Below are positions 30,134 to 50,156 of a DNA stretch of 64,000 bases, in pieces (position 1 is the first letter of the stretch; each line of letters starts with the position of its first letter). Source of the stretch: Rahnella bruchi (lineage in GTDB: Bacteria; Pseudomonadota; Gammaproteobacteria; Enterobacterales; Enterobacteriaceae); contig NZ_QZWI01000003.1 of assembly GCF_003614975.1 (NCBI RefSeq), forward strand, positions 1-64,000. Direction: 5' to 3'. The notes beneath the pieces are model-generated. The model was not told the DNA's origin and ran no database searches. It was given only the letters and a program-made list of their open reading frames with translations. The translations under genes were made by a program, and so were the position numbers.

Positions 30134-30193
30134 GAATGCAGTTGAGAAACAGCTTTGTAGCAATTAATTTTAATGAAACAAGGAGATATGAAT

Positions 30194-30983: not shown

Positions 30984-30997
30984 TCAGAGAATTCTTA
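30984..30997. promoter_or_regulatory. Candidate RcsAB box upstream of kpsMT
   Basis: TCAGAGAATTCTTA agrees with the RcsAB consensus TAAGAATATTCCTA at 10 of 14 positions. It lies about 350 bp upstream of kpsM in a region that must carry the capsule promoter. RcsAB controls many enterobacterial capsules. This match alone is weak evidence. Confidence 0.4.
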
Positions 30998-31280
30998 AAC
31001 CAATAGGCAGGGTGAATGATTTAATACAAATTAATAGTTCAAAGCAATTTTACATAGATGTGATCACCCCTGAAACTTGCTGAAATATTTTTAAGCAACC
31101 TTTGCATTTTTGTGAAAAGGGTATCTCACTCTAACCCGATAAAAAATAGAGATAATTACCAGGAATGTTCCCCCGGTATTAATCTTCTATCCCCAACTTA
31201 CGGACAAGTGACGCCCCCGCTTCAGACACATCTCAGATGTGTCATGCAATAACCGCCTCCCCACATTCCGACCCGTTCCC

Positions 31281-31319
31281 GAGCGCATTGGCTGCTGTAA
31301 GCCAGGGGCGGTAGCGTGG
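31281..31319 (+). promoter_or_regulatory. JUMPStart element with ops site
   Basis: GTAAGCCAGGGGCGGTAGCG lies inside a 39-bp match to the JUMPStart sequence. The ops core GGCGGTAGCGT is at 31307-31317. ops pauses RNA polymerase and recruits RfaH, which allows transcription of long surface-polysaccharide operons. It is placed 28 bp before kpsM, as in group 2 capsule region 3. Confidence 0.95.
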
Positions 31320-31346
31320 AAAAACGTATAAAAACTGGAAAATCCA

Positions 31347-32123
31347 ATGGCACGTAGTGGCTTAGAAGTACAAAAAGCAGCGGTAAAAGCGCTGTTTTTG
31401 AGGGAGATTAAAACCCGTTTTGGTAAGTACCGATTAGGGTATCTGTGGGCAGCACTGGAGCCGATGGCACATATGCTGATTATGCTGGCCATATTTGGTT
31501 ACTTCATGCATAGAACAATGCCCGATATATCATTCCCTGTGTTTTTAATAAACGGCATTATTCCTTATTTTATCTTTAGCAATATCAGCAAAAGATCAAT
31601 TGGAGCCATAGAAGCAAATCAGGGACTCTTCAATTATCGCCCTGTCAGGCCAATCGATACAATCATATCAAGAGCAATTTTAGAAACTCTTATCTATGCA
31701 ATTGTTTATATTCTAATGATGACAATGGTCAGATTATCTGGAGAGAGTTTCAAAATCATCGATGTCATAACATTGATATTCTCCTGGATCCTTTTAGTTA
31801 TTTTTTCTAGTGGAATCGGACTTATTTTTATGGTGATTGGAAAAACTTTCCCTGAAACTGAGAAATTCCTTCCGATACTAATCAAACCTCTCTATTTCAT
31901 CTCCTGTATCATGTTCCCCTTACATAACGTCCCAAAAGAATACTGGCCATATTTATTATGGAATCCGCTTGTCCATGCAGTGGAATTGTCTCGGGAATCT
32001 GTTTTTCCAGGATATATTAGTACTGGCGTTAGTCTTAGTTATCTTGGGTTCTGTGCTCTCATTACTTTGTTCATTGGTTTGGCTTTGTATAGAACACGCG
32101 AAGAGGCCATGTTGACATCATGA
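31347..32123 (+). CDS. kpsM: Capsule ABC transporter permease KpsM
   Basis: The 258-residue ABC-2 permease has six predicted helices and the KpsM N-terminus (LFLREIKTRFGKYRLGYLWAALEP). Other KpsM-like features are LINGIIPYFIFSNI and NPLVHAVELSRESVFPGY near the end. With KpsT it exports the lipid-linked capsule polymer across the inner membrane. It is the first gene after JUMPStart and overlaps kpsT (ATGA). GC content falls sharply from here to about 41740. Confidence 0.95.
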   Translation: MARSGLEVQKAAVKALFLREIKTRFGKYRLGYLWAALEPMAHMLIMLAIFGYFMHRTMPDISFPVFLINGIIPYFIFSNISKRSIGAIEANQGLFNYRPVRPIDTIISRAILETLIYAIVYILMMTMVRLSGESFKIIDVITLIFSWILLVIFSSGIGLIFMVIGKTFPETEKFLPILIKPLYFISCIMFPLHNVPKEYWPYLLWNPLVHAVELSRESVFPGYISTGVSLSYLGFCALITLFIGLALYRTREEAMLTS

Positions 32124-32785
32124 TTAAAATTGAAGGTTTAACTAAGTCATATAAAACACCAAAGGGCAGGCACTTCGTTTTTAAAAATCTAGAAATTGAA
32201 ATTCCCTCAAATAAAAGCGTTGCCCTTGTTGGCAGAAATGGCGCAGGTAAATCAACTCTTTTACGTGTTATTGGGGGTATTGACAGAGCCGATTCAGGAA
32301 AAGTGATTACGAATAAAACAATTTCCTGGCCTGTTGGTTTATCTGGGGGATTTCAAGGAAGTTTGACCGGAAGAGAAAACGTTAAATTTGTAGCACGTTT
32401 GTACTCAACGGCCGCTGAACTCAGAGAAAAGGTGGCTTTTGTTGAAGAGTTTGCTGAATTGGGAAAATACTTTGATATGCCCATCAAAACTTATTCATCT
32501 GGTATGAAATCCCGACTTGGATTTGGCTTGAGTATGGCTTTTAAATTTGACTATTATCTGGTTGATGAAGTCACTGCAGTTGGCGATGCTCGCTTTAAAA
32601 AAAAATGCGCCGACTTATTTAAAGCACGCCATGATGAAGCAAACTTTTTGATGGTATCCCATAGCTTAAACTCCTTGAAAGAGTTTTGTGATGTCGCCCT
32701 ATTCCTGGGAAGGGATAATAAGGCAATCTTTTTTAATTCTGTTGATGATGCAATACAAGCGTATAAAGAAGACGAAAATTTATAG
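32120..32785 (+). CDS. kpsT: Capsule ABC transporter ATPase KpsT
   Basis: The 221-residue ATPase has Walker A GRNGAGKST (about residues 38-46), signature YSSGMKSRL, Walker B YYLVDEVTAVGD and the switch His in MVSHS. The short length without an extra C-terminal domain marks transporters that export a polymer on a lipid acceptor (KpsT type) rather than Wzt types with carbohydrate-binding tails. It overlaps kpsM and is followed after 60 bp by the CDP-glycerol gene. Confidence 0.95.
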   Translation: MIKIEGLTKSYKTPKGRHFVFKNLEIEIPSNKSVALVGRNGAGKSTLLRVIGGIDRADSGKVITNKTISWPVGLSGGFQGSLTGRENVKFVARLYSTAAELREKVAFVEEFAELGKYFDMPIKTYSSGMKSRLGFGLSMAFKFDYYLVDEVTAVGDARFKKKCADLFKARHDEANFLMVSHSLNSLKEFCDVALFLGRDNKAIFFNSVDDAIQAYKEDENL

Positions 32786-32845
32786 TCGTATTGAAATCAT
32801 CGACAAGTTAACAATCATATACTATAAAAGTTAAGGGTATAAGTA

Positions 32846-33241
32846 ATGAAAACTGTTATTACATTTGGTACTTTTGATGTGCTTCATATTGGTCATATTA
32901 AAATATTGCAACGTGCAAAAGAATTTGGAGATCGTTTGGTTGTTGGCATTTCGTCAGATGCATTAAATTTCTCAAAGAAACAAAGAAATCCAGTTTATCC
33001 AGAGCAAGAAAGAAGAGATATCATTGCTGCATTGGGCTGTGTTGATGAAGTATTCATTGAGGAATCGCTGGAACTTAAGGGCGAATATATTAAAAAGTTT
33101 AATGCTGATATTTTAGTAATGGGAAATGACTGGGAAGGACGATTTGACGAATATAAAAGTCTTTGCGCAGTAACCTATCTACCAAGAACTGAAGGAATCT
33201 CTACTACACAATTGATTGCAGAGATTAAAAAATATGGTTAA
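32846..33241 (+). CDS. tagD: Glycerol-3-phosphate cytidylyltransferase (TagD-like)
   Basis: The 131-residue nucleotidyltransferase has the HxGH motif in GTFDVLHIGHIKIL and the C-terminal RTEGISTT signature of TagD-type enzymes. TagD makes CDP-glycerol from CTP and sn-glycerol 3-phosphate for teichoic acid synthesis in Gram-positives. The same enzyme supplies glycerol-phosphate capsules in some Gram-negatives. It overlaps the next gene (a CDP-glycerol glycerophosphotransferase) by 8 bp, so the donor-making and donor-using enzymes are translationally coupled. The symbol is used by similarity and the gene may carry a locus-specific name. Confidence 0.92.
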   Translation: MKTVITFGTFDVLHIGHIKILQRAKEFGDRLVVGISSDALNFSKKQRNPVYPEQERRDIIAALGCVDEVFIEESLELKGEYIKKFNADILVMGNDWEGRFDEYKSLCAVTYLPRTEGISTTQLIAEIKKYG

Positions 33242-34367
33242 TGCACCTAGAATTGGTTTTATCGGATGGAATCCATTTCAATTCCTCCATATTAAAAGAT
33301 TAGCTCAGGCATTAGAGGGGGCATGCTTCATAATAGAAAAAAGAAAAGAGTTCATTTCTGATTTCAGCAGTGAAATTCTGGAATGTGAAGATATTCCAAT
33401 AATGATTTGGGACCGTGCAAAAATGCCATCGTTAGATGGAGTTTTTGATATTATCGTTTGTCAGACTCCATTTTTTAGAATTGAAGAGTTCGAAAAAACT
33501 AAAATTGCCATGATCCAGTATGGCTATGCTAAGGAACCTCATAATTATGGAGCATGGCGATCACTGGCCGATGTCTGCATGACTTATGGTCCATATGCAA
33601 CACAAAAAATATCCTCGTTTGCTCCATCTGTTTCTGTCGGAAATCCAAGATATGATATTTGGGCCTCAGAGGAATTCCATAGTATTGCAAAAAAAACTCA
33701 TGGCAGTAATTTAGATCCCAGCAAAAAAACAGTTCTTTATTTGCCAACATGGGGTGACTTATCCAGTGTTGACCAATATTTAGATTCTGTTTATTCCTTA
33801 GCTGAAGAGTACAATGTCATATTAAAAATGCATCACAACACTGAACTACTTGAATCCGATCGTAAAAAAAGAGTCACAGATGGTGAAGTTATTCATTATG
33901 GTGCTAATGATGATTTATTAGCTTTATTATCAGTTTGCGATTTAGTTATTTCAGATTATAGCGGTGCCATCTTTGATGCAATTTACTGCAAGAAACCAGT
34001 AGTATTACTTAATACAAATCTAGATGAGCAACTGGGTGGTAAGAAAATTGACGAATATAGCCTTGAATATTCAAGAAGAGATGAATTAGGATATGTAGTA
34101 AAAAGTCCAGAAGAACTTTTTTTGGTTATCAGTGTTGCATTAACAGAGAGTAACTTACATTCAAAGACGTCTAAAAATCTTCGTGAAGAATTATTTTTAG
34201 ATACTACAAATGCGACAGAAATAGCGGTCAATGTGCTAAATGGACTGCATAAAAATGAGTATATACCCTCACAATCTCAGGCATATATAAGAAGCGAAAT
34301 CAAAGAACTTCTTAGAACAAAAAGACAACTCGCCATTGCCAATAAAAAATTGAAAGAGGGAAAGTAA
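33234..34367 (+). CDS. CDP-glycerol glycerophosphotransferase (TagB/TagF-like)
   Basis: The 377-residue protein has the teichoic-acid glycerophosphotransferase domain in its C-terminal half. VLYLPTWGD (about 170), ILKMHHN (about 200) and VISDYSGAIFDAIYCKKPVVLLN (about 240) hold the catalytic His and the DYS...KKP donor-binding motif. It is about the length of TagB and lacks the extra N-terminal half of long TagF polymerases. It should transfer glycerol-phosphate from CDP-glycerol to the growing polymer. I chose ATG 33234 inside the end of tagD. The last 30 residues are a charged helix that may be membrane-associated. It directly abuts the next gene. Confidence 0.9.
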   Translation: MVNAPRIGFIGWNPFQFLHIKRLAQALEGACFIIEKRKEFISDFSSEILECEDIPIMIWDRAKMPSLDGVFDIIVCQTPFFRIEEFEKTKIAMIQYGYAKEPHNYGAWRSLADVCMTYGPYATQKISSFAPSVSVGNPRYDIWASEEFHSIAKKTHGSNLDPSKKTVLYLPTWGDLSSVDQYLDSVYSLAEEYNVILKMHHNTELLESDRKKRVTDGEVIHYGANDDLLALLSVCDLVISDYSGAIFDAIYCKKPVVLLNTNLDEQLGGKKIDEYSLEYSRRDELGYVVKSPEELFLVISVALTESNLHSKTSKNLREELFLDTTNATEIAVNVLNGLHKNEYIPSQSQAYIRSEIKELLRTKRQLAIANKKLKEGK

Positions 34368-36647
34368 GTGGCAAAAATTAAAAACTATTTCATCGTCAAA
34401 GCAATCTTCCTTTGCTCAAAAATAGGTGCTCATCGAACAGCTTTGAAATTAGTGAACCGAAGCTTAAGACGAAACATCTCTCTAAACAATCTAAGAAAAG
34501 CAGTCAATCTCGCCAAGAAAAGTAACAATAATATTCTTGTAGAGAAATATGCTAACGAAGCAATAAAAAGATATCCAACTAATTCCTTTGGATATTTGGA
34601 AAAAGCCAACTTGCTGATTGATGAAGGTGAGGTAACACAAGCCAGAGATATTCTTTCTAAGGCTCCTAAATCGGCAGGAACGCATTCTGCATTAACCAGA
34701 TTAAAAAATCATAAATCTATTCCGTTAAAAGTAGCTAAAGAAAAAAATTTAGTAGAAAAAAAATCAAAATTAGAGTTAGCTTTTCAAACTGCCGGTTCTG
34801 ACCATACTCTTTTGAATGCTATTGCGAATCAAGCCCGAGCAGGAATACAAAACTCTCCACGATTATCTTCAAACTATAATATCTTGTGTAAAGTACTGGG
34901 TCAGCTTAATGATAATCATGGTGTGATTTCAACCATTCACAGCATGCCCGATGAATTAAGCACAACGTTGAATAATCAAATGCACCTTGCGGCATCTTAC
35001 AATAAAGTAGGAAATCAACAAGAAGCTTACTTAACACTTATCAAAGCACAAATTAAATATCCTTCAGAACGTAGAATTCTTATGAGAATAAGCGATATTT
35101 TGCGTGATGATGCGTTACCTATCAAAGCATATTCTTATATTCGTGCTGCAAAATCATGTTATCCAGAATATGGTACTGTCAGACAGTTATCCTTTGAAAT
35201 CGATCATAATCTGATTGATGAGGCACGAAAATCTCTGCAGGAGATCTTAAACTTCCCAACACTAAGTTTTATGAAATTTTTGCCAATGATAAATCGTTCA
35301 CTGCCGTATTTTGATGATATGTCGAAGGAAATTATTACAGCAAAAATGAAATCAAGAATGATCCTTGAGGCAGATAAAGGTCGTAAAGGAATTAATCCTA
35401 CTGAGCAGATCCGTGTTGCTTTGAAATGCCGCTGGTTAGAAGAGGCAAAACACATAATTCATCGTTCAAGTAAAACTATACAACCAGTTAGTGACGCCAG
35501 ACAACACTGGTTTAATGAGACATTAAATAACATTGGCAATAATAGAGACATTTTTGAGCTAGCTAGTTTCAATGAAGAAAACACCAGTTTATATGGACTT
35601 ATAGAAGGCACACCTGTTGAAATTTCAAAATTAGATATACCACTTGATAAGATTATTGAAATATTTATACCTACTGTATTTTTTGCAGAACCAGAGCAAG
35701 AAAAATCAAGCTATAAAACTGTCAGAGAGTTTTTGTCAACTGTATATTCTTATTTGAAAGATAATAAGGATTTTGTTCTTGTACCCCGCCACCAGTGGAA
35801 CTGGCGTAAATGCAATCCTAAAATTCCAGGTAGCCGGGTGCTGAGCTATCATACCCACGATGAGTATAATCAGCATCATATTCACATCCAGGAGGCGGCT
35901 TTGGCGGGCCGATGCACCATAGATTATCAAGGTTTTGCTGGATATTCATCCTTAGCAACACATTTTCTGCCAATCGAACTCTCAACAAAAGATTCTACTC
36001 AGCTTCAGCTTGAATCTAACGCTGCAAATCTAGCCATTCAATATATTCAGGGCAATATTTCAAAATATGAGCAAGAGGAAGAAAGAGAAGTGTTTGAAGG
36101 TAATTATGTATTTGTAGCGTTACAAATACCTACCGATGTTGTTGCATCCCTTGCATATATTTCTGGTGTCGATCTGGTTCGAACCGTAGCTGAATTCTAT
36201 GAAGGAACGTCCACTAAAGTTATAGTCAAAAGACATCCCTACTGCAACAGTAAGACAATTCAATCAACACTGGAACAATTAAGCCTCGACAAAAAAATTA
36301 AAATATCTACAGCTTCAGTTCACGATTTAATATCAGGTGCACAGACAGTATTTACAGTTAACTCGGGGGTAGGTCTTGAAGCCTTACTTCATAAAAAACC
36401 TGTTGTCGTGACCGGCTCTTGTGATTACGCATATGCAGTAGCTGCTCAGGCAAGAAACAACGATGAGTTATACAGTATTTTAAATACTCAACTCTGTTTC
36501 GATGCGAATAAAACTAATAAGCTGTTACAGCATTATATTTATGAATATTCCACAAAAAGTAATGATATTGAAGGCATCAAAGACAAGCTTGATAGTTGGT
36601 TGAGCATAGATCTTAGTGTAAACAGCACTGCAAAAATAGCGGGTTAG
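34368..36647 (+). CDS. TPR-like protein fused to a KpsC/KpsS-type glycosyltransferase domain
   Basis: This 759-residue protein starts at GTG with no gap after the previous stop. Residues 35-330 are helical repeats of TPR type (for example NNNILVEKYANEAIKRYPTN and YNKVGNQQEAYLTLIKAQI). The C-terminal third resembles the capsule-synthesis domain found in KpsC and KpsS. It has VIVKRHPYCNSKTI (compare VIKHHPMDRG in KpsS) and FTVNSGVGLEALLHKKPVVV near residue 660 (compare TINSTAGISALIHNKPLIV in KpsS). It is probably the glycosyltransferase that adds the sugar of the repeat unit, held in a complex by its TPRs. The fusion is unfamiliar to me. Confidence 0.75.
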   Translation: MAKIKNYFIVKAIFLCSKIGAHRTALKLVNRSLRRNISLNNLRKAVNLAKKSNNNILVEKYANEAIKRYPTNSFGYLEKANLLIDEGEVTQARDILSKAPKSAGTHSALTRLKNHKSIPLKVAKEKNLVEKKSKLELAFQTAGSDHTLLNAIANQARAGIQNSPRLSSNYNILCKVLGQLNDNHGVISTIHSMPDELSTTLNNQMHLAASYNKVGNQQEAYLTLIKAQIKYPSERRILMRISDILRDDALPIKAYSYIRAAKSCYPEYGTVRQLSFEIDHNLIDEARKSLQEILNFPTLSFMKFLPMINRSLPYFDDMSKEIITAKMKSRMILEADKGRKGINPTEQIRVALKCRWLEEAKHIIHRSSKTIQPVSDARQHWFNETLNNIGNNRDIFELASFNEENTSLYGLIEGTPVEISKLDIPLDKIIEIFIPTVFFAEPEQEKSSYKTVREFLSTVYSYLKDNKDFVLVPRHQWNWRKCNPKIPGSRVLSYHTHDEYNQHHIHIQEAALAGRCTIDYQGFAGYSSLATHFLPIELSTKDSTQLQLESNAANLAIQYIQGNISKYEQEEEREVFEGNYVFVALQIPTDVVASLAYISGVDLVRTVAEFYEGTSTKVIVKRHPYCNSKTIQSTLEQLSLDKKIKISTASVHDLISGAQTVFTVNSGVGLEALLHKKPVVVTGSCDYAYAVAAQARNNDELYSILNTQLCFDANKTNKLLQHYIYEYSTKSNDIEGIKDKLDSWLSIDLSVNSTAKIAG

Positions 36648-36685
36648 CCCTCTCTAGCAATAGTTATAACTAAGCAGGCATTCAG

Positions 36686-37594
36686 ATGGAACTTGTATCA
36701 AAAACTGCAAAAATATCCAAGCGCGCTACATTAATTGACCCTGTTCGTATTAATGACGATGTTCATATCAGTGATAAAGTATTCATTGGGAAATATACAG
36801 TACTTGGTAAAAGATCTAATATTGGTCCGTTCTCTTCAATCGGAAGTTATTGCATTATTGATCATGATTGTGATATTGGATTAGCATCATATCCTACTAA
36901 CTTTCTTAGTACGCACACCTTCCAATACAACAAACACCATTTTGGACAGATAGATTCATATAGCGAAATACCAAAAATAAGCTGGAATGATAGTACCGAA
37001 ACTATAATAGGCAATGATGTCAAAGTTGGCCCTCAAACAACTATCTCTCGGGGTGTTACAATTGGCACTGGTGCAATTATATCCCCGAATACCTTTATAA
37101 AAACGGATATTCCTCCATATGCAATAGTTGAAGGAAATCCTTCAACTATTGTAGGCTATCGATTTGATAAGGTTACAATCGGCAAATTGCTAGAAAGTCA
37201 ATGGTGGGACTTCAATCCAGAAGATTTAATAAATATTGATTTTTCTGATATTCAGTCAGCGATAAATGATGTATTTAATTTAAGATTACACTATCAACTT
37301 CGTAATGAAACATTATTTAAAAATTCCATTTCCAATAATGCTAGTATCTCTAAAACAGGTATAATTTGGTTTAATACACCTTACTCTCATATTGATAAAA
37401 ACATACTTGATAAATTCAAGAAACTGACAATTAATAACACTGATTCAACTAGCGATCTTCAAACTGGCGAATATACAATATCTGATGCTATTTATGATTC
37501 AAATCGTGGTTGGTATAAAATAAAATTTCTTGTAAATGATATGGAGTACACAGGTATCTTGGGTAGGAACTCTTTAAACTTCACTTTAAGTTAA
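36686..37594 (+). CDS. Left-handed beta-helix acyltransferase with extra C-terminal domain
   Basis: The 302-residue protein has hexapeptide repeats over about residues 5-165 (VHISDKVFIGKYTVLGKRSNIG, later IIGNDVKVGPQTTISRGVTIGTGAIISPN). It closes with YAIVEGNPSTIVGYRF, typical of CatB/NodL-like O-acetyltransferases that use acetyl-CoA. It is a good candidate for O-acetylating the capsule. About 140 residues follow that are not part of this fold. The last 46 (from about residue 257: GEYTISDAIYD ... NDMEYTGILGRNSLNF) resemble the C-terminus of the GT4 protein encoded at 38783-40477. The codon use is AT-rich. Confidence 0.82.
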   Translation: MELVSKTAKISKRATLIDPVRINDDVHISDKVFIGKYTVLGKRSNIGPFSSIGSYCIIDHDCDIGLASYPTNFLSTHTFQYNKHHFGQIDSYSEIPKISWNDSTETIIGNDVKVGPQTTISRGVTIGTGAIISPNTFIKTDIPPYAIVEGNPSTIVGYRFDKVTIGKLLESQWWDFNPEDLINIDFSDIQSAINDVFNLRLHYQLRNETLFKNSISNNASISKTGIIWFNTPYSHIDKNILDKFKKLTINNTDSTSDLQTGEYTISDAIYDSNRGWYKIKFLVNDMEYTGILGRNSLNFTLS

Positions 37595-37610
37595 ATACCT
37601 AAGGACAAAT

Positions 37611-38750
37611 ATGAATCTTCAACATTCTTCTGATGGTGCTCATTTTAAATATTTAAACCACTATAACTCAAACAAGCTTGCGATATTTTTTTCTGGTACT
37701 GATAAAACCGAAGGTAAGTTCGACTTTTGGAATGTTGGTAATTCACTAAATTGCCATAAACTTTTTTTCAATAATGGTAGTAACGAATGGTACCAGCGAG
37801 GGATAATTGGATTTGGCGACAGCATACATGGTACCGTAGAGAAAATCCGCTCTCTTTGTAAAGAGTTTTCAATAACAGAGGTTTTTTTAGTAGGTGTTAG
37901 CATGGGAGGTTATGGCGCAATATTATTTGGTGCGCTTCTCAATGCAAAAATCTTGGCTTTCGGCTTTGATTCTAAATTAAAAATAACTGGCAGTCGGAGT
38001 GCCAAAAGACTTCCAAAAGACATAAAGATTTTATATGATGATCTCAGACCTGTTATCGAAAATTCTGATTGTCATGTAACCCAAATCTGTGGTGAATGCG
38101 ATGCATTAGATCTTTATTCAGCAAGCAGAATATTTTCATTAAAAAATGTCAAAAGCATTTCATTAAGAGGGATTGGGCACGGAAGTGCTCCATTTATTAA
38201 TGAAAACTATAATTTAGTAGAATACATTTCTAACTGGATGAATAATGATGCACCATTCATTATTGAATCTGTTAATAGCGTTTGCTCAATTAAACTGACA
38301 AATTCCATATACCAAGCATATTTAGCATATGCCAGAAAATCCTGGGATGAAGTAGATTGTTTATGCAGAAATGCCCTTCTATTATCGCCTTATCATGAAT
38401 ATATTAACTTTATGCTTGGTACGGCTCTACTCGAACGCAACTTAGCAGAAGAAGCTTTAGGACCATTATATATTGCAGTTGGTGTCGCGCCTCATTATCC
38501 AGCAGCCCAATATAGACTAGCTAGGGCATTAATGAAGCTCAAGAATTTCTCTCAAGCACAATATCATTTAGAAATTCATGTCAGGCAGAACCCAACATCA
38601 ACTGTGGCTTTATTATTTCTGTCCGATGTTCATTATGAATTAAAAAACTATAAATTAGCGTTTTTAAAAATAAATGAGGCAATACAACTAGGTGCCACTG
38701 AAGACAAGACAAAGAAAAGGCTAGAAAAACTCGGATCAATATATTGTTAA
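37611..38750 (+). CDS. Alpha/beta-hydrolase-like domain fused to TPR repeats
   Basis: In this 379-residue protein the N-terminal part (about 20-215) is an alpha/beta hydrolase. It has FLVGVSMGGYGAILFGALL holding the G-x-S-x-G nucleophile elbow (Ser near residue 97) and a late GHGSAP His region. The C-terminal part (about 230-375) consists of three to four TPR units (YQAYLAYARKSWDEVDCLCRNALLL, then LGTALLERNLAEEALGPLYIA). It may be a capsule deacetylase, esterase or acyl-transfer enzyme within the biosynthesis complex. It ends the rightward operon, 16 bp after the acyltransferase gene. Confidence 0.75.
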   Translation: MNLQHSSDGAHFKYLNHYNSNKLAIFFSGTDKTEGKFDFWNVGNSLNCHKLFFNNGSNEWYQRGIIGFGDSIHGTVEKIRSLCKEFSITEVFLVGVSMGGYGAILFGALLNAKILAFGFDSKLKITGSRSAKRLPKDIKILYDDLRPVIENSDCHVTQICGECDALDLYSASRIFSLKNVKSISLRGIGHGSAPFINENYNLVEYISNWMNNDAPFIIESVNSVCSIKLTNSIYQAYLAYARKSWDEVDCLCRNALLLSPYHEYINFMLGTALLERNLAEEALGPLYIAVGVAPHYPAAQYRLARALMKLKNFSQAQYHLEIHVRQNPTSTVALLFLSDVHYELKNYKLAFLKINEAIQLGATEDKTKKRLEKLGSIYC

Positions 38751-38784
38751 AAATTACCGACGGTTATTACCGTCGGTAATTTTT
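38749..38784. terminator. Bidirectional terminator between the two capsule operons
   Basis: A perfect 16-bp stem (AAAAATTACCGACGGT and its complement) with a TATT loop. It ends the rightward and leftward capsule transcripts at their meeting point, overlapping the last bases of both genes. Confidence 0.93.
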
Positions 38785-40477: not shown

Positions 40478-40503
40478 CACATTCCCTATCTACTTAAAAT
40501 TTA

Positions 40504-41601: not shown

Positions 41602-41643
41602 GTCATCCACTCATCTAAAAATCATTAATAAAATATAAACTTA

Positions 41644-42891
41644 CTAAATATTTATTTTATTATAGTAAAACCCTTGGCGATTCAATTTATATTCACATTC
41701 CTTTGTTTCTTTATTTATCTCACCATAATACACCGCATTAATCTGCGTATTCTTCAGCAAGTATAGACGGAACTGTTTGAAAAGCTTCATATCCGGTTTG
41801 AATCCTGAGGTCCAGAACTGGTTCAGATGCCCCTGATAGGTAATGCCTTTAATGTCATACAACGCCTTGCCCATCACGATCAGCGGCTTGTTATGGATAA
41901 GCGCAGAGATACCGGCGGTGCTGTTAATCGTCACCACGGCTTTAGCGTGTGTGAGCAGTTCCGGCATCGGCAGATCGTGGATGTAGATCACCCGGTCGGT
42001 CACGCCATATTTTTTTCCAAGCTGGCGGATCAGCGGTCCGTACAGGCGGTGTCCCCTGTCCATCGGATGATGTTTGATGACCAGGAACTCACTCTTCGGC
42101 GCTTTTTTGGCGAACGAGTGCATCACTTCATTGATGTAATCACGGATATCTTCATACGGGCTGTGATTACGGATCTGGCTGTCGTTGTAGACCTGCAAAA
42201 TCGCCAGATAATAACGCTGATCCAGATCGGTCTGGAGCTGCTGCAAAACGTTGCGCTGGCGGAAGGCATACACCTTTTTACGCCAGGCCGCGCGAGTCCA
42301 GCAACGTGCCTCATACCACGGCGAGAAGGATTTGTGATGGCGATATTTCGGGAAATCGTGGCGGTGACGCCAGCCGGCCAGATAATAGGTAATGGCGTGA
42401 CGGACGCGCTGCCAGCCCGAAGGTTTTAGCTGCTCGATTTCCGGCATGGTCATTTTTGGCAGGCTGCGGTAAAACTCGGCATCACGCGGCAGGCTGGAAT
42501 AGGCGTTTACGCCGTTCTGTTCCAGCGTGATGTAGTGCGGGCGCAGATAGCCCTCCTCAAACGCCAGGAAGCGAACGCCTTTGGCCTGTGCCCAGCGTTT
42601 AGCGGCCTGATGCAGTGGACGGCAATCCCCGAAACACACGATGGTATCGAAGTCGTACTCCTGCCAGGTTTCTTTTAGCCAGGTCGGAAACTCATCCGGG
42701 GTCTGCTGGTACAAGCGGTATTCACGCTTTCGCGAATACAACCTGTCGCCGCCGTTGAAAACGACGTTCACCGCTTCGCGGCCCAGTGACTCCAGCCACT
42801 GCGCTAAATCGCTGAAGAAAGGTCCCATCGGGCCCTGCAACAGCAAATATTTTTTTCCAGAAAGTAATGTTGTAAGCGCCTTACTGTCCAT
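41644..42891 (-). CDS. kpsS: Capsule Kdo transferase KpsS
   Basis: The 415-residue protein matches KpsS, which adds the first beta-Kdo to phosphatidylglycerol to begin the conserved poly-Kdo linker of ABC-transporter-dependent capsules. Motifs: LLLQGPMGPFFSDLAQWL near the N-terminus, FEEGYLRPHYITLE (about 130), FLVIKHHPMDRG (about 290) and TINSTAGISALIHNKPLIVMG (about 330). The final 40 residues are AT-rich and less like other KpsS proteins. The GC switch to the low-GC central region happens inside this 3' end. It is followed by the beta-helix gene and preceded by kpsC. Confidence 0.94.
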   Translation of the reverse strand: MDSKALTTLLSGKKYLLLQGPMGPFFSDLAQWLESLGREAVNVVFNGGDRLYSRKREYRLYQQTPDEFPTWLKETWQEYDFDTIVCFGDCRPLHQAAKRWAQAKGVRFLAFEEGYLRPHYITLEQNGVNAYSSLPRDAEFYRSLPKMTMPEIEQLKPSGWQRVRHAITYYLAGWRHRHDFPKYRHHKSFSPWYEARCWTRAAWRKKVYAFRQRNVLQQLQTDLDQRYYLAILQVYNDSQIRNHSPYEDIRDYINEVMHSFAKKAPKSEFLVIKHHPMDRGHRLYGPLIRQLGKKYGVTDRVIYIHDLPMPELLTHAKAVVTINSTAGISALIHNKPLIVMGKALYDIKGITYQGHLNQFWTSGFKPDMKLFKQFRLYLLKNTQINAVYYGEINKETKECEYKLNRQGFYYNKINI

Positions 42892-42939
42892 TTCTGTCCG
42901 ATTCCATCAACGCCTTGGGCATTTAGTAAGAAGCTGTTC

Positions 42940-44979
42940 TCAGGTGCTCAATGTCACCCGGATCAGCATGAGCAGTTTTCTGTAATAACGGACTATCCTG
43001 CCCGCTTTTATTCTTGTGAATTGCATCTCTGCCCTTGGGGTCGCAGCGAGAAGTTCAACCGCCTGCTCCGCCAAAATAGGCTCCCGACTTTGCGGGTCGA
43101 TGTACGACGGGTACGCAATCAGCGCCTGGTAAACCACGTCGTCTACTGTGAGGCTGCGCAGCCGGCGTGAACAGCTATGCTCATCCTGCGTCAGTCCCCA
43201 TCCGGCATAAAATGGCATGCCGTAACACGCCACTTTCTTGCCATGTAATAAGGCTTCAAAACCTGACAATGATGTCAGGGTGTGCAGCTCGTCGGCAGCC
43301 TGAATGCACTGAATAATGTCGGCATCCAGCGCCTGACTGTCGGCCCAGCGGCTGACATCTTCCGCAGGAATATTCCCCTGCCGGTTACCGACCAGAACGT
43401 CCGGGTGCGGCTTATAAATGATGTAAGCGTCGGGATTACGCTCCCGCACCGTGCGCAGCAAATCACTGTTGGTGCAAAGCGACAGCGTGCCCGTCAGAAT
43501 TGAGGCGTCATCTTCCACCTGTCCCGGCACCAGAATCACTGTCTTGCCCGCCGCTTCCACAGGCAATATAAACGCAGCGCCGAGGTTATATTTACTGACT
43601 TTGCTGGCGACCAGTCTCTGGCGCAGCGCCGCAGCACGTTGTTGCTGAAACACCGTCAGCTGACTGTTATTCAGCAACTGCTCGAGGTCACTCGGGCGCG
43701 TGGCATCGTAATAAATGCCTGATTTATCCAGCACCAGCGACAGCGGCGGATGCAGGTCAGAACCCAGTCCTGCCGAGCGCAGAAAGCCGTCTTCCATGCG
43801 CCATTGCGGGATCTGATGTTGTGCGGTCTGAGCCCCCCAGCGCGCTTCGCCTTTAATTCCCCACACCACGCAGGCGGTTTCACCGGCATAGCGTTTACTG
43901 AAATTCACTTTGTTACTTTTGGTTCGCAGGAACGGCGCCAGAATGCTGCGCTTCCAGAGCGTCAGCCCCGGTGACCACAAACGTCCGGTCCGCTGCTGGT
44001 GATGACGTCGTTGCATTGAAAGCCAGCTAAGTACATCAAATAACGTGCCACTCTTACCGCTGACCGGATTGATATACCGGCTGTAACGTAAACAGGCGGC
44101 GCTGAACAGGTCTTCCAGACTGGCTATACCACGCCTCGCCCGGAGCGGTTCCGACTGCGCATGACGATCGTCCGTTAATCCCCAGCCCGCATACCACGGC
44201 TGTCCGAACACGCTGACCGGTTTACCGGCAATCAGCGCCTCAAAGCCATAGTTGGACGTCACGACATACACGTGCTCAACCAGACGCAGCAAAGACTGCG
44301 GGCTGACGTTTTCCGCCAGCAGTTTGATCCGCGGTTCCTGTTGCGCCAGTTGTGCAATCTGCGTGAAATAGCCTGCTTTTTTGCCGTGTAAAACGTCCGG
44401 GTGGATCTTCACCCAAATCTCAGACTGTGGGTTTTCAGCAATCGCCGAGCGCAGCATGTCGTCAAACTGTTCAGCTCCGGCATTGCCGTAAACCACTGCC
44501 ATATCAGCGAAGGTCTGATCGACCACTAAAACCGCGCCCTGTTCAGGCCGGGTCAGCGTGCACGCAGGTGCCTGGTTATATTTCGACAGGTCACCGTCAA
44601 CGATCATCTGCATGGCCTGACGCGCGGCATCATGCAGCAACTGGTTCTCTTCCCGCTGGTGGATAAGCCGCTCCAGCGTGCCCGGCTGCGAGGCGTCGTA
44701 ATACATGCCCTCTGTATCCAGCACCATTGAAAGCGGCGCAGCGCCTGTCACACCCAACTCCAGAGAACGGATAAATCCGTCCTCGAGGCGCAACACCGGC
44801 AGGCCCGACTTTTTGGCCAGCGCGACGGCTTTATCGCCGGTTGGCCGGTAACCCCACACGGCAATCTGCATGATGTCTTCCGGCACCGGCCGCAGCAGAG
44901 AAAGCTTGCGGCACGGCTGACCCAGAAAGGCTTCCAGATGCGGGATGCGCTGAATGCCCGCCGAAAAAATCCCAATCAT
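42940..44979 (-). CDS. kpsC: Capsule dual Kdo transferase KpsC
   Basis: This 679-residue protein is built of two homologous GT modules. The first has [13 protein letters not shown] (about 60) and [29 protein letters not shown] (about 240). The second has [25 protein letters not shown] (about 395) and [29 protein letters not shown] (about 580). KpsC extends the poly-Kdo linker with alternating linkages. It starts at ATG 44979, sharing one base with the kpsD stop, and length matches E. coli KpsC (675). Confidence 0.95.
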
Positions 44980-46655
44980 TAAATTGTCAGAACCACTTTC
45001 GCGGCAACCGCCAGCTGATAAAGGATCGTCGAGATACCACGGGTAACTTCGATGTTCTTCGATTCGTATTTCGGCAGCACCATCAGTTCATCGCCGGGTT
45101 GCAGCGATTTCACGTCTTCTGCGTTAATCGCTTCGCCGTTCTGTTTGATCAGGATGACTTTGGAGTTACCCGCTTTCTGCGTGTAACCGCCGACTTTCTC
45201 GATGTAATCATCCGGGCTCAGACCTTTCTGCCAGCTCACCGCATTCGGGAACAGCACTTCGCCGTGGATCATCACCAGCGAGGTCTTCTCAGGAATGTTG
45301 ATGACGTCGCCGTCTTCGAGGATCACCTGATTCAGGTTCGTTTCACTCAGCACCACTTCACCTTTCGGCACTACCTGACGGGCTTTCGCCACGAAACGGC
45401 TGACCAGCTGGGCTTCCTGCGCGCGCAAGCGCCCTTCTTCCTGCGTTGAAGATTGTGCCGACAGAGAGGCTTCTTCCAGTTTCTGCAACGTCAGATCCAG
45501 CATCTCTTTCTGGCGGAGCGCCACCGAGCGGCGGTACAGCTGGATGGAGTTAATCTGCGACATGCTGTTGGTGCGGATCTTCGGCAGCAGCTGGCTCATG
45601 GTGGCGCCATACGGCAGTACGACCGCGTGTTCACCCGAATGCGCGCCTTCGATACGCACCTGGATGGTCCCCGCGTAACGGTCAGAGCTGACAATCAGTT
45701 TGTCGCCATCCTGTAATGAACGGCCCGGCGCGGAACCCAGCGGATAGTATTCGCTGCGTTTCATGCTGCCCTGCTGGCGGATAATGGTCATGTGCGTCGC
45801 GCCCGGTTTCGGACGCGCCCAGCTCAGGGCTTCGCTCACCGGAATAGTGCTGTCACGGAATTCAAAGTCGTAGCTGTTAAAGACATCACCTTCCACGCTG
45901 AACGTGTGCTGACGCGGCCCGACTACGATGGTATCGCCGTCAGAGAACTGTGACAGTCGCAGGTCGCCGTTAAGCAGGAAATCATACAAGTTGATGCGCG
46001 AACGCACGCGGTCATTGTGTTTCACCACGATGTCTACGTAGCTGCCGCGTTCGGTGTCCACGCCACCGGCTTTACTCAGATAAGAAAGCAGTGAGTCAGA
46101 CGCCACGCCGCCGTATAAGCCCGGATTGGTGACATAACCGGTGACAAACACTTTGACCGGCTGTGCCTGAAGCAGTGAGGCGTAAACGTTCACGTTAGCC
46201 TGATAAACCTGTTTCACTTTGGTAGTGATCACGCTGTTCAGCTGGCTGTTAGACACACCGGCCACTTTTAGCGGGCCGACGTTTGGCAGGAAGATATTGC
46301 CTTTCGGGTCAACGGTCAGCGCGCCATCAAAATTGAATGCGCCCCACAGTCGGATTTGTACCTGGTCACCAAGGCCGACGATGTAATTCGGGTTGAAACC
46401 AATGCTGGCCGCGTTATCGGCAGCCGCGCCGCCGGTAAATAACTGCGCACCGAACATGCGGCTCATGACCGCAGGCACCGGAGGCGGCGGCGAATCATCA
46501 AAACCGGTATCAGAACCGGTCTGCTGGGTCTGACCGGTTAAAAATGTCGGCAGCGGCGCTGCGCCGGTCATGTTTGGATCGGCGTTGATCCCGACGGCAT
46601 TTGCCTGGGTAAGCTGGCAGGCCAGCAAAATTAATACGGACTTCAATAATTTCAT
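44979..46655 (-). CDS. kpsD: Capsule export outer-membrane polysaccharide export protein KpsD
   Basis: The 558-residue precursor (E. coli KpsD also 558) has signal peptide [20 protein letters not shown] and polysaccharide-export/SLBB domains ([34 protein letters not shown], then [20 protein letters not shown]). KpsD carries the polymer from the periplasm through the outer membrane together with KpsE. I place the start at ATG 46655 because the upstream codons are not signal-like and the length then matches E. coli exactly. Confidence 0.96.
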
Positions 46656-46709
46656 AACAAGCTCTGTGTGCGATTCTTCAGGCAAAAAGGGATAGCGGTA
46701 CAAACCACA

Positions 46710-47873
46710 TCAATCTTTATGGTCATCGATAACGGCCAGCAATAATTTAATCGTTCCGAATAACAGGCAGCACACCAGCAGCCAGCTTGCGATCATATAA
46801 GGAATATTCGGGAACGTGGTTTCTTGCGGGAGCTGCGGCGAACTGATCACCGAAAGCACTTTCAGTTTCCGTGCCGCTTCAACACGGGTTTTCTCAACCG
46901 ATGTCAGCGTCAGTTTGTAGAGCTCGGTATCAAACTCGACTTTCGATTTAATGCTTTCGAAATCCACCGCCATGCTGTTCAGCTGATGGCCATCCGGTGC
47001 GGTGATTTTGCTTTTTTCCTGATCGATTTGCTTGCCGAGAGAAGTAATGGCGTTCTGCGCGCTGATCACCTGCGGCGCATCTTCACGCAGATAGGTCAGC
47101 AGGTTGCGCAGTTCCGCTTCCATCTGGATTTTTTGCCCCATCAGCGTATTGACTAACGTGGTCGCTGCAATCGCCTGAGCCTGCGGATCGAGAATATTGT
47201 TGTGGTTCTGATACGCCAGTAACTGGGTTTTGCTTTCGTCCAGACGGGCGCGGGCTTCACGCATTTCGTTTTCAGCAAACGCCTGCTGATCGCGGGCGAT
47301 TTTATGCGTGATTTCGTTAATGAAACGTTCGGATTCTTTGAGAACCGCTTTGTTGAACAGCTCAGCGAATTCCGGCGTAAAGCCCTGAGTGCCGATGGTC
47401 AGCATGCCGGATTTGTCGTCATAAGTGACGGCAATGCGGTCGCGGTAGTAGTTCAGGAACTGCTCGCTGCTGGAATCTTTCGGCAGGTGATACAGAAAAT
47501 CCAGACCGCTTTTACCGAAAACGGAATGGAAATCGAGCTGCTTATCCAGCACCGCCAGCATGTCCGGCGAGTTGATGTATTCTTTTAAATACATGGCGTC
47601 CTGAGCGGTGCTCGGATTCCCGGCCCCCAGCAGCAGGCCGACGTTCAGGCTGGATCCGCTGATGTCGTTAGAACTTTTGATAGCGACCGTAGATTCGCTG
47701 AGATAACGCGGACGGCTGAAGATCACCAGATAGATGATCAGCAACGCCATCGGCAGGCCGATCACAATTTTACCTAAATTGCGGTTCAGCGTGGCCATAT
47801 TAAGATGAGGAGATCGACGAACCCGGGCAATGTGTTCGCCGGGCCATGCGGACTTCAATTTTTCAATAAACAT
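46710..47873 (-). CDS. kpsE: Capsule export polysaccharide co-polymerase KpsE
   Basis: The 387-residue inner-membrane protein has TM1 at about residues 33-52 (LGKIVIGLPMALLIIYLVIF) and a long, partly coiled-coil periplasmic part (about 190-300). TM2 lies near the C-terminus (YMIASWLLVCCLLFGTIKLLL). It follows E. coli KpsE (382 aa) through most of its length. It links the KpsMT transporter to KpsD. It is separated from kpsF by 120 bp containing two hairpins. Confidence 0.95.
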   Translation of the reverse strand: MFIEKLKSAWPGEHIARVRRSPHLNMATLNRNLGKIVIGLPMALLIIYLVIFSRPRYLSESTVAIKSSNDISGSSLNVGLLLGAGNPSTAQDAMYLKEYINSPDMLAVLDKQLDFHSVFGKSGLDFLYHLPKDSSSEQFLNYYRDRIAVTYDDKSGMLTIGTQGFTPEFAELFNKAVLKESERFINEITHKIARDQQAFAENEMREARARLDESKTQLLAYQNHNNILDPQAQAIAATTLVNTLMGQKIQMEAELRNLLTYLREDAPQVISAQNAITSLGKQIDQEKSKITAPDGHQLNSMAVDFESIKSKVEFDTELYKLTLTSVEKTRVEAARKLKVLSVISSPQLPQETTFPNIPYMIASWLLVCCLLFGTIKLLLAVIDDHKD

Positions 47874-47893
47874 TTATGATCATCATGACAAAC

Positions 47894-47965
47894 AGCACGT
47901 TTTTATCGTCGTGCTTTATTAAAAGTACCGTGAAAACCTTATTTCCCTCGCATAAGGTTCACGGT
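47894..47965 (-). other. Two tandem hairpins between kpsF and kpsE
   Basis: Hairpin A: AGCACG (47894-47899) with CGTGCT (47910-47915), 10-nt loop. Hairpin B: ACCGTG and AACCTTAT (47927-47942, with AA bulged) pair with ATAAGGTT and CACGGT (47952-47965). No strong T run follows on the minus strand, so partial termination or mRNA processing is more likely than full termination. Confidence 0.5.
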
Positions 47966-47993
47966 GCGCAAATAGTTAAGTCTTGCTTTTTCG

Positions 47994-48980
47994 TCAGTCG
48001 AAGATACGAACTAACCCTGCAACGTTCTTTTCTTTGTCCGTCACCAGCAACACCGAAACGCGGTGCTTTTGCATCAGCATTTCAGCATCCGTAATCATCA
48101 TGTCAGCCGTTAATGTCAGCGGCGAACGGGTCATCATGTCTCTGGCACACGCGCTGTCGAGCTGTGCATTCTTTTCCATATAGCGACGCAAATCGCCATC
48201 AGTAATGATGCCGGCCAACTGGTTCTGCGCATCATTGACTGCCACCATGCCCTGACACCCGCAGGTGATCGCCGAGATCACCTGACGGAATTCGGTGTCT
48301 TCGGTAATGGTCGGCACGTTCGTCTGCATCACGTCTGAAACGCGGGTCAGCAAACGGCGACCCAGTGAGCCGCCAGGATGGTAGCGGGCGAAATCCGTCG
48401 GCAGGAATTTACGCTGATGGATAAGCGCCACGGCCAGCGCATCGCCGATCGCCATGGTCAGCGTGGTCGATGTCGTCGGAGCCAGATTATTCGGGCAGCT
48501 TTCACTTTCCATCATCAATTCAAGCGTCGCATCAGCATGTTTAGCCAGCGTCGATTCGCAGTGGTTCGTGATCGCAATAATGCGGTTACCAAACTGTCGC
48601 AGAGAAGGAATAAGCTTGAGAATTTCGTCGGTTTCGCCGCTCGCTGAAATCAGGATCAGCAGGTCATACGGCGTAATCATCCCCAGATCGCCGTGAAAGG
48701 CTTCTGCAGGATGAATAAAGAAACTGGGGGTTCCGGTTGAGGCCAGCGTTGCGGAAATTTTGCGCCCGACATGCCCTGACTTTCCCATTCCGGAGAGGAT
48801 CACGTGGCCTTTACACTCCACAATCAGCTTCAGCGCCTTCTGGTACTGAACGCTGTCGAGTTGTGAAGAAAGTCGGTGTAAGGCATCAGCCTGCTCAGAA
48901 AGCGTACTGCGCACCGAGTCAATCAGACCGGGCTGTAAGGGTACAAATCCCGTGCTTGCAACTACCTGATTATCTGCCAC
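47994..48980 (-). CDS. kpsF: D-arabinose 5-phosphate isomerase KpsF
   Basis: The 328-residue protein has a SIS sugar-isomerase domain (ILSGMGKSGHVGRKISATLASTGTPSFF and the LILISASGETDEI loop). Two CBS domains follow from about residue 205 (LTRVSDVMQTNVPTI, MMTRSPLTLTADMMI). It converts ribulose 5-phosphate to arabinose 5-phosphate, the first committed step to CMP-Kdo used by KpsC and KpsS. I chose GTG 48980, preceded by CAGGG, because it gives the E. coli length (327). A TTG at 49022 would add 14 residues. It is the first gene of the leftward kpsFEDCS operon. kpsU is missing between kpsD and kpsC. Confidence 0.93.
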   Translation of the reverse strand: MADNQVVASTGFVPLQPGLIDSVRSTLSEQADALHRLSSQLDSVQYQKALKLIVECKGHVILSGMGKSGHVGRKISATLASTGTPSFFIHPAEAFHGDLGMITPYDLLILISASGETDEILKLIPSLRQFGNRIIAITNHCESTLAKHADATLELMMESESCPNNLAPTTSTTLTMAIGDALAVALIHQRKFLPTDFARYHPGGSLGRRLLTRVSDVMQTNVPTITEDTEFRQVISAITCGCQGMVAVNDAQNQLAGIITDGDLRRYMEKNAQLDSACARDMMTRSPLTLTADMMITDAEMLMQKHRVSVLLVTDKEKNVAGLVRIFD

Positions 48981-49488
48981 TTTTATACCCTGAATACCCT
49001 GTCCGGGATAAAACTCACTCAACGACTACACTATAGAGTGGTTATTTATTTTGGTTAGCCGATCAAGTCAATGCGCGGAGACGAATTCCATTTCCTGGTC
49101 TGACCGGTCGATGCTGCTTGGCAGCTGGGGGGAATTGAATGAGAAAAGCGAAAACCTGACCGAAGCAGAGGTTCGCGAGTAAAATATAAGCTTACATACA
49201 CGTGAGAAAAGAAACAGATTCACACGGGTTATTGATAACTGAAACACATTCATTCAATTCACGCGATTTTTTAACATAGGGCACGAAATAACACAAATGC
49301 TATCGGACTTGTCCTAGGAATTTATGACATTTCGTTATTTCGTCGTGTTTAAAAAAAATTATCAACCACCTGTTTTATAACAATTTGCTCTTAGCTAGCA
49401 CAATCAATCATAGCGAATTAGCACTATAAGCAAGCTATTATTAACGAATAGTGAATTGGTCGTAAGAAAATGTTTCAAGGAGGTCATA
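48981..49488. other. Divergent region between kpsF and ybiI
   Basis: This 508-bp stretch contains no gene. It marks the right edge of the capsule island. It includes a candidate -10 box (TATAGT) on the minus strand about 45 bp before the kpsF start, an RcsAB-like dyad at 49303-49316 and a long inverted repeat at 49281-49345. No JUMPStart copy is seen on this side. Confidence 0.55.
49281..49345. repeat. Inverted repeat enclosing a candidate RcsAB box
   Basis: ACGAAATAAC near 49283-49292 faces GTTATTTCGT near 49332-49341. Between the arms lies TCGGACTTGTCCTA (49303-49316), which read on the minus strand agrees with the RcsAB consensus at 9 of 14 positions. It is located about 320 bp upstream of kpsF. 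Confidence 0.45.
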
Positions 49489-50102: not shown

Positions 50103-50156
50103 TAAAGCGCCGTAACCCAATGCCGTTCCCATAATATGTACAAAGGAAATTCACTG

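Follow-up and report, generated by a model that had tools for sequence, protein, structure and literature searches.

We analyzed a window of 64,000 nucleotides from Rahnella bruchi (contig NZ_QZWI01000003.1, positions 1 to 64,000) that carries a group 2 capsule locus of the kps type, served by an ATP-binding cassette (ABC) transporter, between dps (30173-30697) and glnH (50136-50900). On balance, the evidence leans toward a capsule whose backbone contains both 3-deoxy-D-manno-oct-2-ulosonic acid (Kdo) and sn-glycerol-3-phosphate, most likely in alternation. We favor this reading because a TagD-like cytidylyltransferase and a TagB/F-like enzyme of family PF04464 point to glycerol-phosphate, and because the second chain-building enzyme, a fusion of tetratricopeptide repeats (TPR) with a KpsS/KpsC-like glycosyltransferase (TPR-GT), points to Kdo. 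The pairing of the TagF-like gene in eight locus types, three of which (all from Pseudomonas) have added kdsA and kdsB-kdsC genes, supports the same backbone.

A predicted glycerol-phosphate transferase beside a Kdo transferase-like enzyme

A preliminary description of this stretch had proposed that the exported polymer should contain glycerol-phosphate, an expectation supported by the TagD-like and PF04464 matches (Table 1). The TagD-like protein is closest in the PDB to a glycerol-3-phosphate cytidylyltransferase (1coz); TIGR01518 remains its best NCBIfam model at 125.9 bits, under the cut-off of 165.4. The TagF-like open reading frame (ORF) opens with TTG at 33216, and its relatives align from 33234. 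Its profile matched TagF, TarL, and Cps3D in the PDB, in the C-terminal half. The enzyme is free-standing (377 to 383 amino acids, aa), and no fusion of a TagF-like domain with a GT-A or GT-B domain occurs in the locus; such fusions reportedly define the TagF-like capsule polymerase class of Litschko (2018). The WHG motif, which we take to hold TagF His444, is found in the K2 row of our alignment alone; the six free-standing rows lack it and share QYG(Y/L)AKE(P/R)HNYG. A histidine occupies the place of TagF His584 in all seven aligned rows; the residue numbers of His584 and His444 are those of PMC5974469 (available part). The predicted donor of the TagF-like enzyme is supported by its genomic context, and its acceptor side appears to be its own. 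Cps7A of Actinobacillus pleuropneumoniae, also a PF04464 enzyme, places glycerol-3-phosphate on O7 of Kdo (PMC11666461, available part). The LicD family, which includes CpsC, had no match among ten locus proteins scanned, and the Escherichia coli CFT073 locus has one. At E 1e-20, the TagF-like profile found the window's own genome alone among 369 genomes of the class. In plasmids, tblastn returned five matching records with the TagF-like query and six with TPR-GT, all partial and below 60% identity.

The catalytic half of TPR-GT aligned by hhalign with KpsS (96.7%, 4e-10) and KpsC (96.5%, 8.8e-10), compared with 11.5% (0.0026) for TagF; TagF against KpsS gave 0.3%. The TPR matches of the window protein lie below cut-off, and one lies above it in the relative from Pseudomonas sp. 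BP8. Searched against the PDB at E ≤1, the TPR-GT profile returned eight distinct sequences, four of KpsC (0.0038 to 0.14) and four of a WbbB-GT99 set (5.8e-6 to 6.7e-6), three of which we presume to carry that name. The fourth, 8csb, is WbbB-GT99 (PMC12887879, available part). According to the same text, retaining Kdo transferases carry a QXXXD motif with a nucleophilic Asp and a CMP (cytidine monophosphate) motif, (K/R)XHP, the latter also found in sialyltransferases. TPR-GT has Q586-I-P-T-D590 and K621-R-H-P, and its Q and D align with those of KpsS and KpsC. The motif pair was present in 7/7 TPR-GTs tested and 0/6 TagF-like proteins, as well as in the KpsS and KpsC of the window and the KpsC-like protein of E. 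coli Ecol_545. Among the 106 window ORFs of at least 100 aa, only TPR-GT, KpsC, and KpsS carried it; shuffling TPR-GT produced the pair in 143 of 20000 trials.

The window's genome gave no NeuB-family match (0/1), whereas the control search was positive in 9 of 14 genomes. We would therefore expect CMP-Kdo to be the sole CMP-ulosonate, with no donor of sialic, legionaminic, or pseudaminic acid. From its profile matches and motifs, TPR-GT is probably a chain-building Kdo transferase rather than the decorating enzyme that the preliminary description had made of it. Roles for this protein as a hexosyl decorator or a second TagF were considered and rejected on the KpsS/KpsC profile matches and the retaining Kdo-transferase motifs.

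A TPR-GT search of 392 genomes of the family matched 36 at E ≤0.001, most of the matches being short and within the common KpsS/KpsC-like part; matches below 1e-20 were confined to the window's genome, a Kluyvera genome (G305), G070, and G240. G070 (L052:9494-11020) and G240 (L053:9708-10985) encode TPR-GT-like proteins with ∼29 to 31% identity over some 210 residues and with both QXXXD and KRHP. Their loci have distant kpsMT-like genes, and tagD, tagF, and a true kpsC are not there; these loci may specify other polymers with a CMP-ulosonate sugar.

Conserved pairing and Kdo supply genes

We counted as locus types those in which the TagF-like gene is full length and ≥35% identical; plasmid-borne relatives are more distant (30 to 33% over part of the protein). 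The eight types found, few in number, are those of the window, Kluyvera georgiana (L050/L051/L062), E. coli GMF065 (with a GT8 enzyme), E. coli SE15 and SCU-102, E. coli Ecol_545, and Pseudomonas BP8, G988, and G986. In 8/8, the neighbor of the TagF-like gene resembles CMP-ulosonate transferases: it is TPR-GT in six types, KpsC-like in Ecol_545, and GT29-like in G986. By family membership, all three sorts of partner are relatives of CMP-ulosonate transferases.

Among 5426 E. coli genomes, at least 80% of the GMF065 stretch occurs in 5, its tagD-to-TPR-GT part in two more (SE15 and SCU-102), and the Ecol_545 type in 4. The Ecol_545 locus (L059:10144-16676) combines tagD and the TagF-like gene with a 799-aa KpsC-like enzyme; its annotation shows a fragment of kpsM near 10144 in addition to the full gene at 15900. 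Pseudomonas G986 (L101:7388-10411) has tagD, the TagF-like gene, the GT29-like enzyme, kdsA, and kdsB-kdsC, and may arrive at this kind of polymer by a different route.

In Pseudomonas sp. BP8, the genes immediately after TPR-GT encode KdsA and a fused KdsB-KdsC, and the genome holds further copies of kdsA (71%), kdsB (48%), and kdsC (39%). KpsC was detected at E 1e-60 in 9 of 199 genomes of this genus, BP8 included. Eight Pseudomonas loci, again few, could be assessed; the stretches from G947 were too short to judge, and it was excluded. KdsA is encoded within four of the eight (G790, which is BP8, G988, G793, and G986), all with a type-specific CMP-ulosonate-transferase-like gene; G793 lacks tagD and has a partial KdsB-KdsC match. 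Of the four loci without KdsA, G927 has Stealth and GT2 enzymes, G968 and G919 have HAD-containing enzymes of 1100 to 1200 aa, and no type-specific transferase was identified in G945. The G968 enzyme has a sub-threshold Capsule_synth match (E 0.0045), and both HAD-containing enzymes may be KrkA-like Kdo-ribose polymerases. Judged from these gene contents, KdsA is a one-way marker that goes with Kdo-type enzymes, and its absence is uninformative.

Separately, Pseudomonas kps genomes encode a second KpsC-like protein (∼32 to 39% to the window KpsC), mostly a few kilobases from kpsS (Table 1).

Alternative readings

Several observations weigh against a backbone of Kdo and glycerol-phosphate. Kdo genes serve the linker too, and kpsF is present in 8/8 assessable Pseudomonas loci; two of the four that lack kdsA could nonetheless specify Kdo polymers. 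WHG is missing from the TagF-like enzyme, whose match to TagF is confined to the C-terminal half. In G986, the match of the GT29-like partner is short and weak (26.3 bits against a cut-off of 23), the protein lacks (K/R)XHP, and the TagF-like gene is just 36% identical. In the available part of PMC12887879, the discussion of related enzymes includes KpsS1, a retaining transferase of pseudaminic acid. Finally, the TPR-GT-like proteins of G070 and G240 occur without tagD or tagF, and the enzyme is therefore not tied to glycerol-phosphate.

A less probable but still serious alternative is that glycerol-phosphate is a primer only. The TagF-like enzyme would then be a CpsA-type transition transferase adding one unit to the poly-Kdo linker, after which TPR-GT would polymerize Kdo into a homopolymer of the kind proposed for E. 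coli K6 or would make a hexose-Kdo polymer together with the GT4 enzyme. CpsA/CpsC of A. pleuropneumoniae provide the precedent, Cps7A being a PF04464 transition transferase of this sort (PMC11666461, available part), and the TPR-GT relatives of G070 and G240 fit as well. E. coli SE15 and SCU-102 retain GT4, as do Pseudomonas BP8 and G988, but neither GT4 nor the hydrolase/TPR protein is matched in the locus versions of Kluyvera and E. coli GMF065, so both seem dispensable for the backbone. The ten scanned proteins also include no counterpart of the LicD-type CpsC, and a general primer enzyme might adjoin varied polymerases, whereas the TagF-like gene is paired solely with CMP-ulosonate-transferase-like genes in the eight loci sampled, a small number.

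An ordinary teichoic-acid-like capsule, either poly(glycerol-phosphate) or poly(hexosyl-glycerol-phosphate) with hexoses from TPR-GT and GT4, would account for tagD, the PF04464 enzyme, and the TarM-like GT4, and it has precedents in E. coli K2 and A. pleuropneumoniae. We consider it unlikely, given that TPR-GT is not TagF-like by profile and has the motifs of retaining Kdo transferases, and that a fused TagF/GT polymerase was not found in the locus. It is very improbable that the locus is decaying or silent and the original polymer no longer made. The acetyltransferase does have Tyr where 5/6 relatives have a presumed catalytic His, but the reading frames are open, the other enzymes keep the motifs that were checked, kpsM is preceded by an ops element, and KpsFEDCS are 94 to 99.7% identical to those of four relatives (G392, G379, G394, and G255), with KpsMT at 82 to 86% where present.

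Predicted assembly and significance

Gene content, family membership, motifs, and the conserved pairing are the basis on which we predict donors, order of addition, alternation, and decorations of a Kdo/glycerol-phosphate capsule. KpsS and KpsC would build the poly-Kdo lipid linker, and TagD would make CDP (cytidine diphosphate)-glycerol. The TagF-like enzyme would transfer glycerol-3-phosphate to Kdo, first on the linker and afterwards on each new Kdo, and TPR-GT would add Kdo from CMP-Kdo to the glycerol end, its TPR half perhaps keeping hold of the chain or of the other enzyme. A hexose or N-acetylhexosamine branch would come from the TarM-like GT4, the hydrolase/TPR protein (perhaps with the acetyltransferase) would add or remove acyl groups, and KpsMTED would export the finished chain.

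Whether the locus represents a wider class is, in our estimate, evenly balanced: Gram-negative “teichulosonic” capsules of Enterobacteriaceae and Pseudomonas would have an alternating Kdo/glycerol-3-phosphate backbone made by two free enzymes, with linker and polymer built by related chemistry. If true, this would be a new capsule repeat unit, joining building blocks best known from the initiation of group 2 capsules, and the backbones of several capsule types from E. coli and Pseudomonas would be predicted together. It would also offer a two-enzyme system for studying how chains start on the poly-Kdo linker, in which one TagF-like enzyme could both prime and elongate. We found no report of a Kdo and glycerol-phosphate polymer in the literature searched at the level of titles and abstract openings.

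Locus organization and capsule swapping

The kpsMT genes at the left end read rightwards, kpsFEDCS at the right end read leftwards, and seven type-specific genes lie between them (Table 1). The GC content is ∼34% in the type-specific center and roughly 46 to 57% in the flanks. With kpsMT, kpsE, kpsD, kpsC, and kpsS all found around a variable center, the locus has the gene content of group 2 kps loci. The preliminary description had recognized a kps island of KpsMT/KpsFEDCS around TagD-like and TagB/F-like genes, and every gene class it named is present. Its right boundary, 49022, coincides with the end of kpsF, but its left boundary, 30984, is intergenic, the first gene starting at 31347, and its otherwise correct list omitted the serine-hydrolase/TPR and beta-helix genes.

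TABLE 1 Features of the capsule locus and related proteins in other loci
Feature	Position	Strand	Evidence
ops/JUMPstart element (GGCGGTAGCGTG)	31307-31318	+	Exact match, directly 5' of kpsM
kpsM, capsule ABC-transporter permease	31347-32123	+	PF01061 over cut-off
kpsT, ABC-transporter ATPase	32120-32785	+	PF00005 over cut-off; 73-80% identity to kpsT of five E. coli loci
tagD-like glycerol-3-phosphate cytidylyltransferase (predicted CDP-glycerol supply)	32846-33241	+	Best PDB match 1coz, E 5.4e-37
TagB/F-like (PF04464) enzyme, predicted glycerol-3-phosphate transferase	33234-34367	+	PF04464 56.3 bits, cut-off 22.1
TPR-GT, 759 aa, TPR and KpsS/KpsC-like transferase, predicted chain-building Kdo transferase	34368-36647	+	Capsule_synth 40.1 bits at residues 555-690
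Hexapeptide (Vat/CatB-like) acetyltransferase with extra C-terminal domain	36686-37594	+	PF00132 60 bits
Asp2-like serine hydrolase/acyltransferase with C-terminal TPRs	37611-38750	+	TPR_19 over cut-off; TIGR03712 weak, 8.8e-5
GT4 glycosyltransferase, TarM-like, with extra C-terminal domain	38783-40480	-	PF00534 97.2 bits; best PDB match TarM, E 2.8e-31
Beta-helix (NosD-like) protein, apparent signal peptide	40504-41610	-	PF13229 and PF05048 over cut-off
kpsS, first Kdo transferase of lipid linker	41644-42891	-	Capsule_synth 305.4 bits
kpsC, two-domain poly-Kdo linker transferase	42940-44979	-	Capsule_synth 332 bits over two stretches; 67% to KpsC of three E. coli loci
kpsD, polysaccharide export outer-membrane protein	44979-46703	-	PF02563 and SLBB_2 over cut-off
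kpsE, polysaccharide export inner-membrane protein	46710-47873	-	TIGR01010 425.8 bits, slightly under 437.5 cut-off; no Pfam match
kpsF, arabinose-5-phosphate isomerase (Kdo precursor)	47994-49022	-	TIGR00393 339.7 bits, cut-off 203.7
Hydrolase/TPR relatives	L061:4351-5511; L101:2577-3857; L096:11358-12593; L108:11214-12362		Similarity to 37611-38750
Second KpsC-like proteins	L091, L093, L095, L097, L099, L100, L102/L103, L104, L107		Similarity to window KpsC

Like kpsE (Table 1), kpsM at 186.7 bits (cut-off 300) and kpsS at 387.3 (cut-off 600) score below the cut-offs of their own NCBIfam models. The sequence at 31307-31318, which we take to be an ops/JUMPstart motif, is the sole exact match in the window; with ≤1 mismatch, 0.23 matches were expected per shuffle, and at least one match arose in 20 shuffles. 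A kpsU (CMP-Kdo synthetase) gene, present in E. coli group 2A loci, had no match among 14 locus proteins scanned. Group 2B loci likewise lack kpsU (PMC13171606, available part).

KpsC occurs at 85 to 96% identity in 7/13 other genomes of the genus, and KpsM in 8/14 with the window's genome counted; kpsM is 82 to 84% identical across seven same-genus genomes. We compared stretches from the seven kps-bearing relatives, which run from kpsM to kpsE in G379, G394, G255, G322, and G035 and end with the contig inside the center in G392 and G173. The flanks are conserved (no kpsF was found in G322) and the centers differ, a pattern that marks the dps-glnH position, by comparative gene content, as a capsule-swapping site in the genus. 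Domain scans of ten proteins from six of these loci gave multi-domain polymerases containing PF04464 at the same site in G255, G035, and G173 (the last cut by a contig end), or 3/7 relatives. This, with the tagD/TagF locus of E. coli CFT073 and the E. coli matches described below, contradicts the earlier view that such capsules are unusual in the family. The G379 locus has an IspD-like/short-chain dehydrogenase fusion that would be of the CDP-ribitol synthesis type. At the same site, G394 (L044:8011-10610) has a GT4-type gene and a 553-aa Capsule_synth protein with QXXXD and KAHP, and its capsule is perhaps of a hexose-Kdo type.

Beyond the capsule genes, a pair of genes for an extracytoplasmic function (ECF) sigma factor and an anti-sigma factor lies at 28521-29776, between rhtA and dps. 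A small ORF between kpsF and glnH (49456-49755, + strand) carries a CxxC...CxxC pattern, presumably a likeness to DksA/TraR-type zinc-finger proteins.

Modifying enzymes and the beta-helix protein

GT4 and the hydrolase/TPR protein may modify the polymer, to judge from their families. Residues 45 to 445 of the 565 of GT4 match TarM, homology over most of TarM, in agreement with the earlier assignment to the poly(glycerol-phosphate) glucosyltransferase kind, at least as regards a wall-teichoic-acid type. In the hydrolase/TPR protein, the Ser of GxSMGG, an Asp, and a His are kept in 4/4 aligned relatives. Asp2-like hydrolase/TPR fusions recur in E. coli and Pseudomonas kps loci, including loci without TPR-GT (21 to 50% identity; Table 1).

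The acetyltransferase, previously proposed as a decorator, does belong to the hexapeptide family, but its role in decoration is uncertain. It has SYP, with Tyr in place of His, where BP8 and one G988 copy have NHP, G986 has SHP, and Kluyvera and the other G988 copy have AHP. This His, which we take from Vat/XAT enzymes to be catalytic, is present in 5/6 aligned relatives, G009 also lacking it; the window enzyme may be inactive or work otherwise.

A C-terminal domain of ∼90 residues is common to the acetyltransferase (37313-37591) and GT4 (38786-39118) of this locus (blastp 6e-5), and the two enzymes share it in Pseudomonas as well. A chance match was rejected at the profile level (96.6%, 6e-10, versus 0.05% for one negative control). 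The domain had no Pfam match over cut-off and no convincing match in a PDB search; a likeness to the SH3b-like domain of Bcs3 is a guess. Its sharing by two modifying enzymes suggests a possible common polymer-recognition module.

Relatives of the beta-helix protein (45 to 50% identity) adjoin kpsS in 6/7 same-genus kps loci (L042, L044-L048), whose centers otherwise differ, and others lie near type-specific genes in Kluyvera (L062:1892-3109) and Pseudomonas BP8 (L061:5608-6681). The protein may be a general capsule-associated factor, such as a lyase, epimerase, or trimming enzyme.

Comparison with known systems

The preliminary description did not know this gene set, but comparison with known kps loci finds its core in E. 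coli SE15 and SCU-102. These strains and GMF065 share the order kpsMT-tagD-tagF-like-TPR-GT (tagD 79%, tagF-like 55 to 56%, TPR-GT 38 to 40%). SE15 and SCU-102 also have hydrolase/TPR (42 to 43%) and GT4 (44 to 45%) genes; unlike the window, they have no acetyltransferase or beta-helix match within a 17.5-kb stretch. GMF065 has GT8 instead. All three loci adjoin gsp genes, whereas the window locus lies between dps and glnH. To our knowledge, no polymer structure is known for these kps types. More broadly, a match to some part of window positions 32800-36700 at 60 to 80% identity occurs in 248 of 5426 E. coli genomes; among the 25 matches listed, 23 cover ≤10% of that query, the tagD part. The core gene set, already in sequenced E. 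coli, may be among the K-types catalogued in PMC13171606.

The locus of Pseudomonas sp. BP8 (L061) has counterparts of tagD (85%), the tagF-like gene (64%), TPR-GT (50%), the hydrolase/TPR gene (50%), the beta-helix gene (39%), the acetyltransferase (37%), and GT4 (30%). It differs in its extra kdsA and fused kdsB-kdsC, its gene order, and a distant kpsM (32%). E. coli CFT073 (L058), which we take to be K2, a glycerol-phosphate capsule type, resembles the window in tagD (78%), kpsMT (76 to 80%), kpsC (67%), and kpsS (73%), but has a 1266-aa polymerase that combines TagF with a GT4-type part, and a 411-aa TPR-LicD protein, where the window has the TagF-like enzyme and TPR-GT.

Cps7A/B/C/D of A. 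pleuropneumoniae share with the window a CDP-glycerol supply, a PF04464 glycerol-phosphate transferase, an ABC-transporter capsule, and TPR on a chain-building enzyme (PMC11666461, available part). Unlike Cps7, the window has no match to a LicD-type CpsC and no TagF/GT fusion, and its TPR are fused to a Kdo-transferase-like domain. The KrkA/K13 Kdo transferase and the GT99/GT107 enzymes resemble TPR-GT in QXXXD, in the HP of the CMP motif, and in contributing to the variable portion of group 2 capsules; KrkA joins Kdo and ribose within one polypeptide, whereas the predicted partner of TPR-GT is a separate glycerol-phosphate transferase (PMC12887879, available part). TarM, a wall teichoic acid glycosyltransferase, is matched by the window GT4, which has in addition the C-terminal domain common to the acetyltransferase of the same locus.

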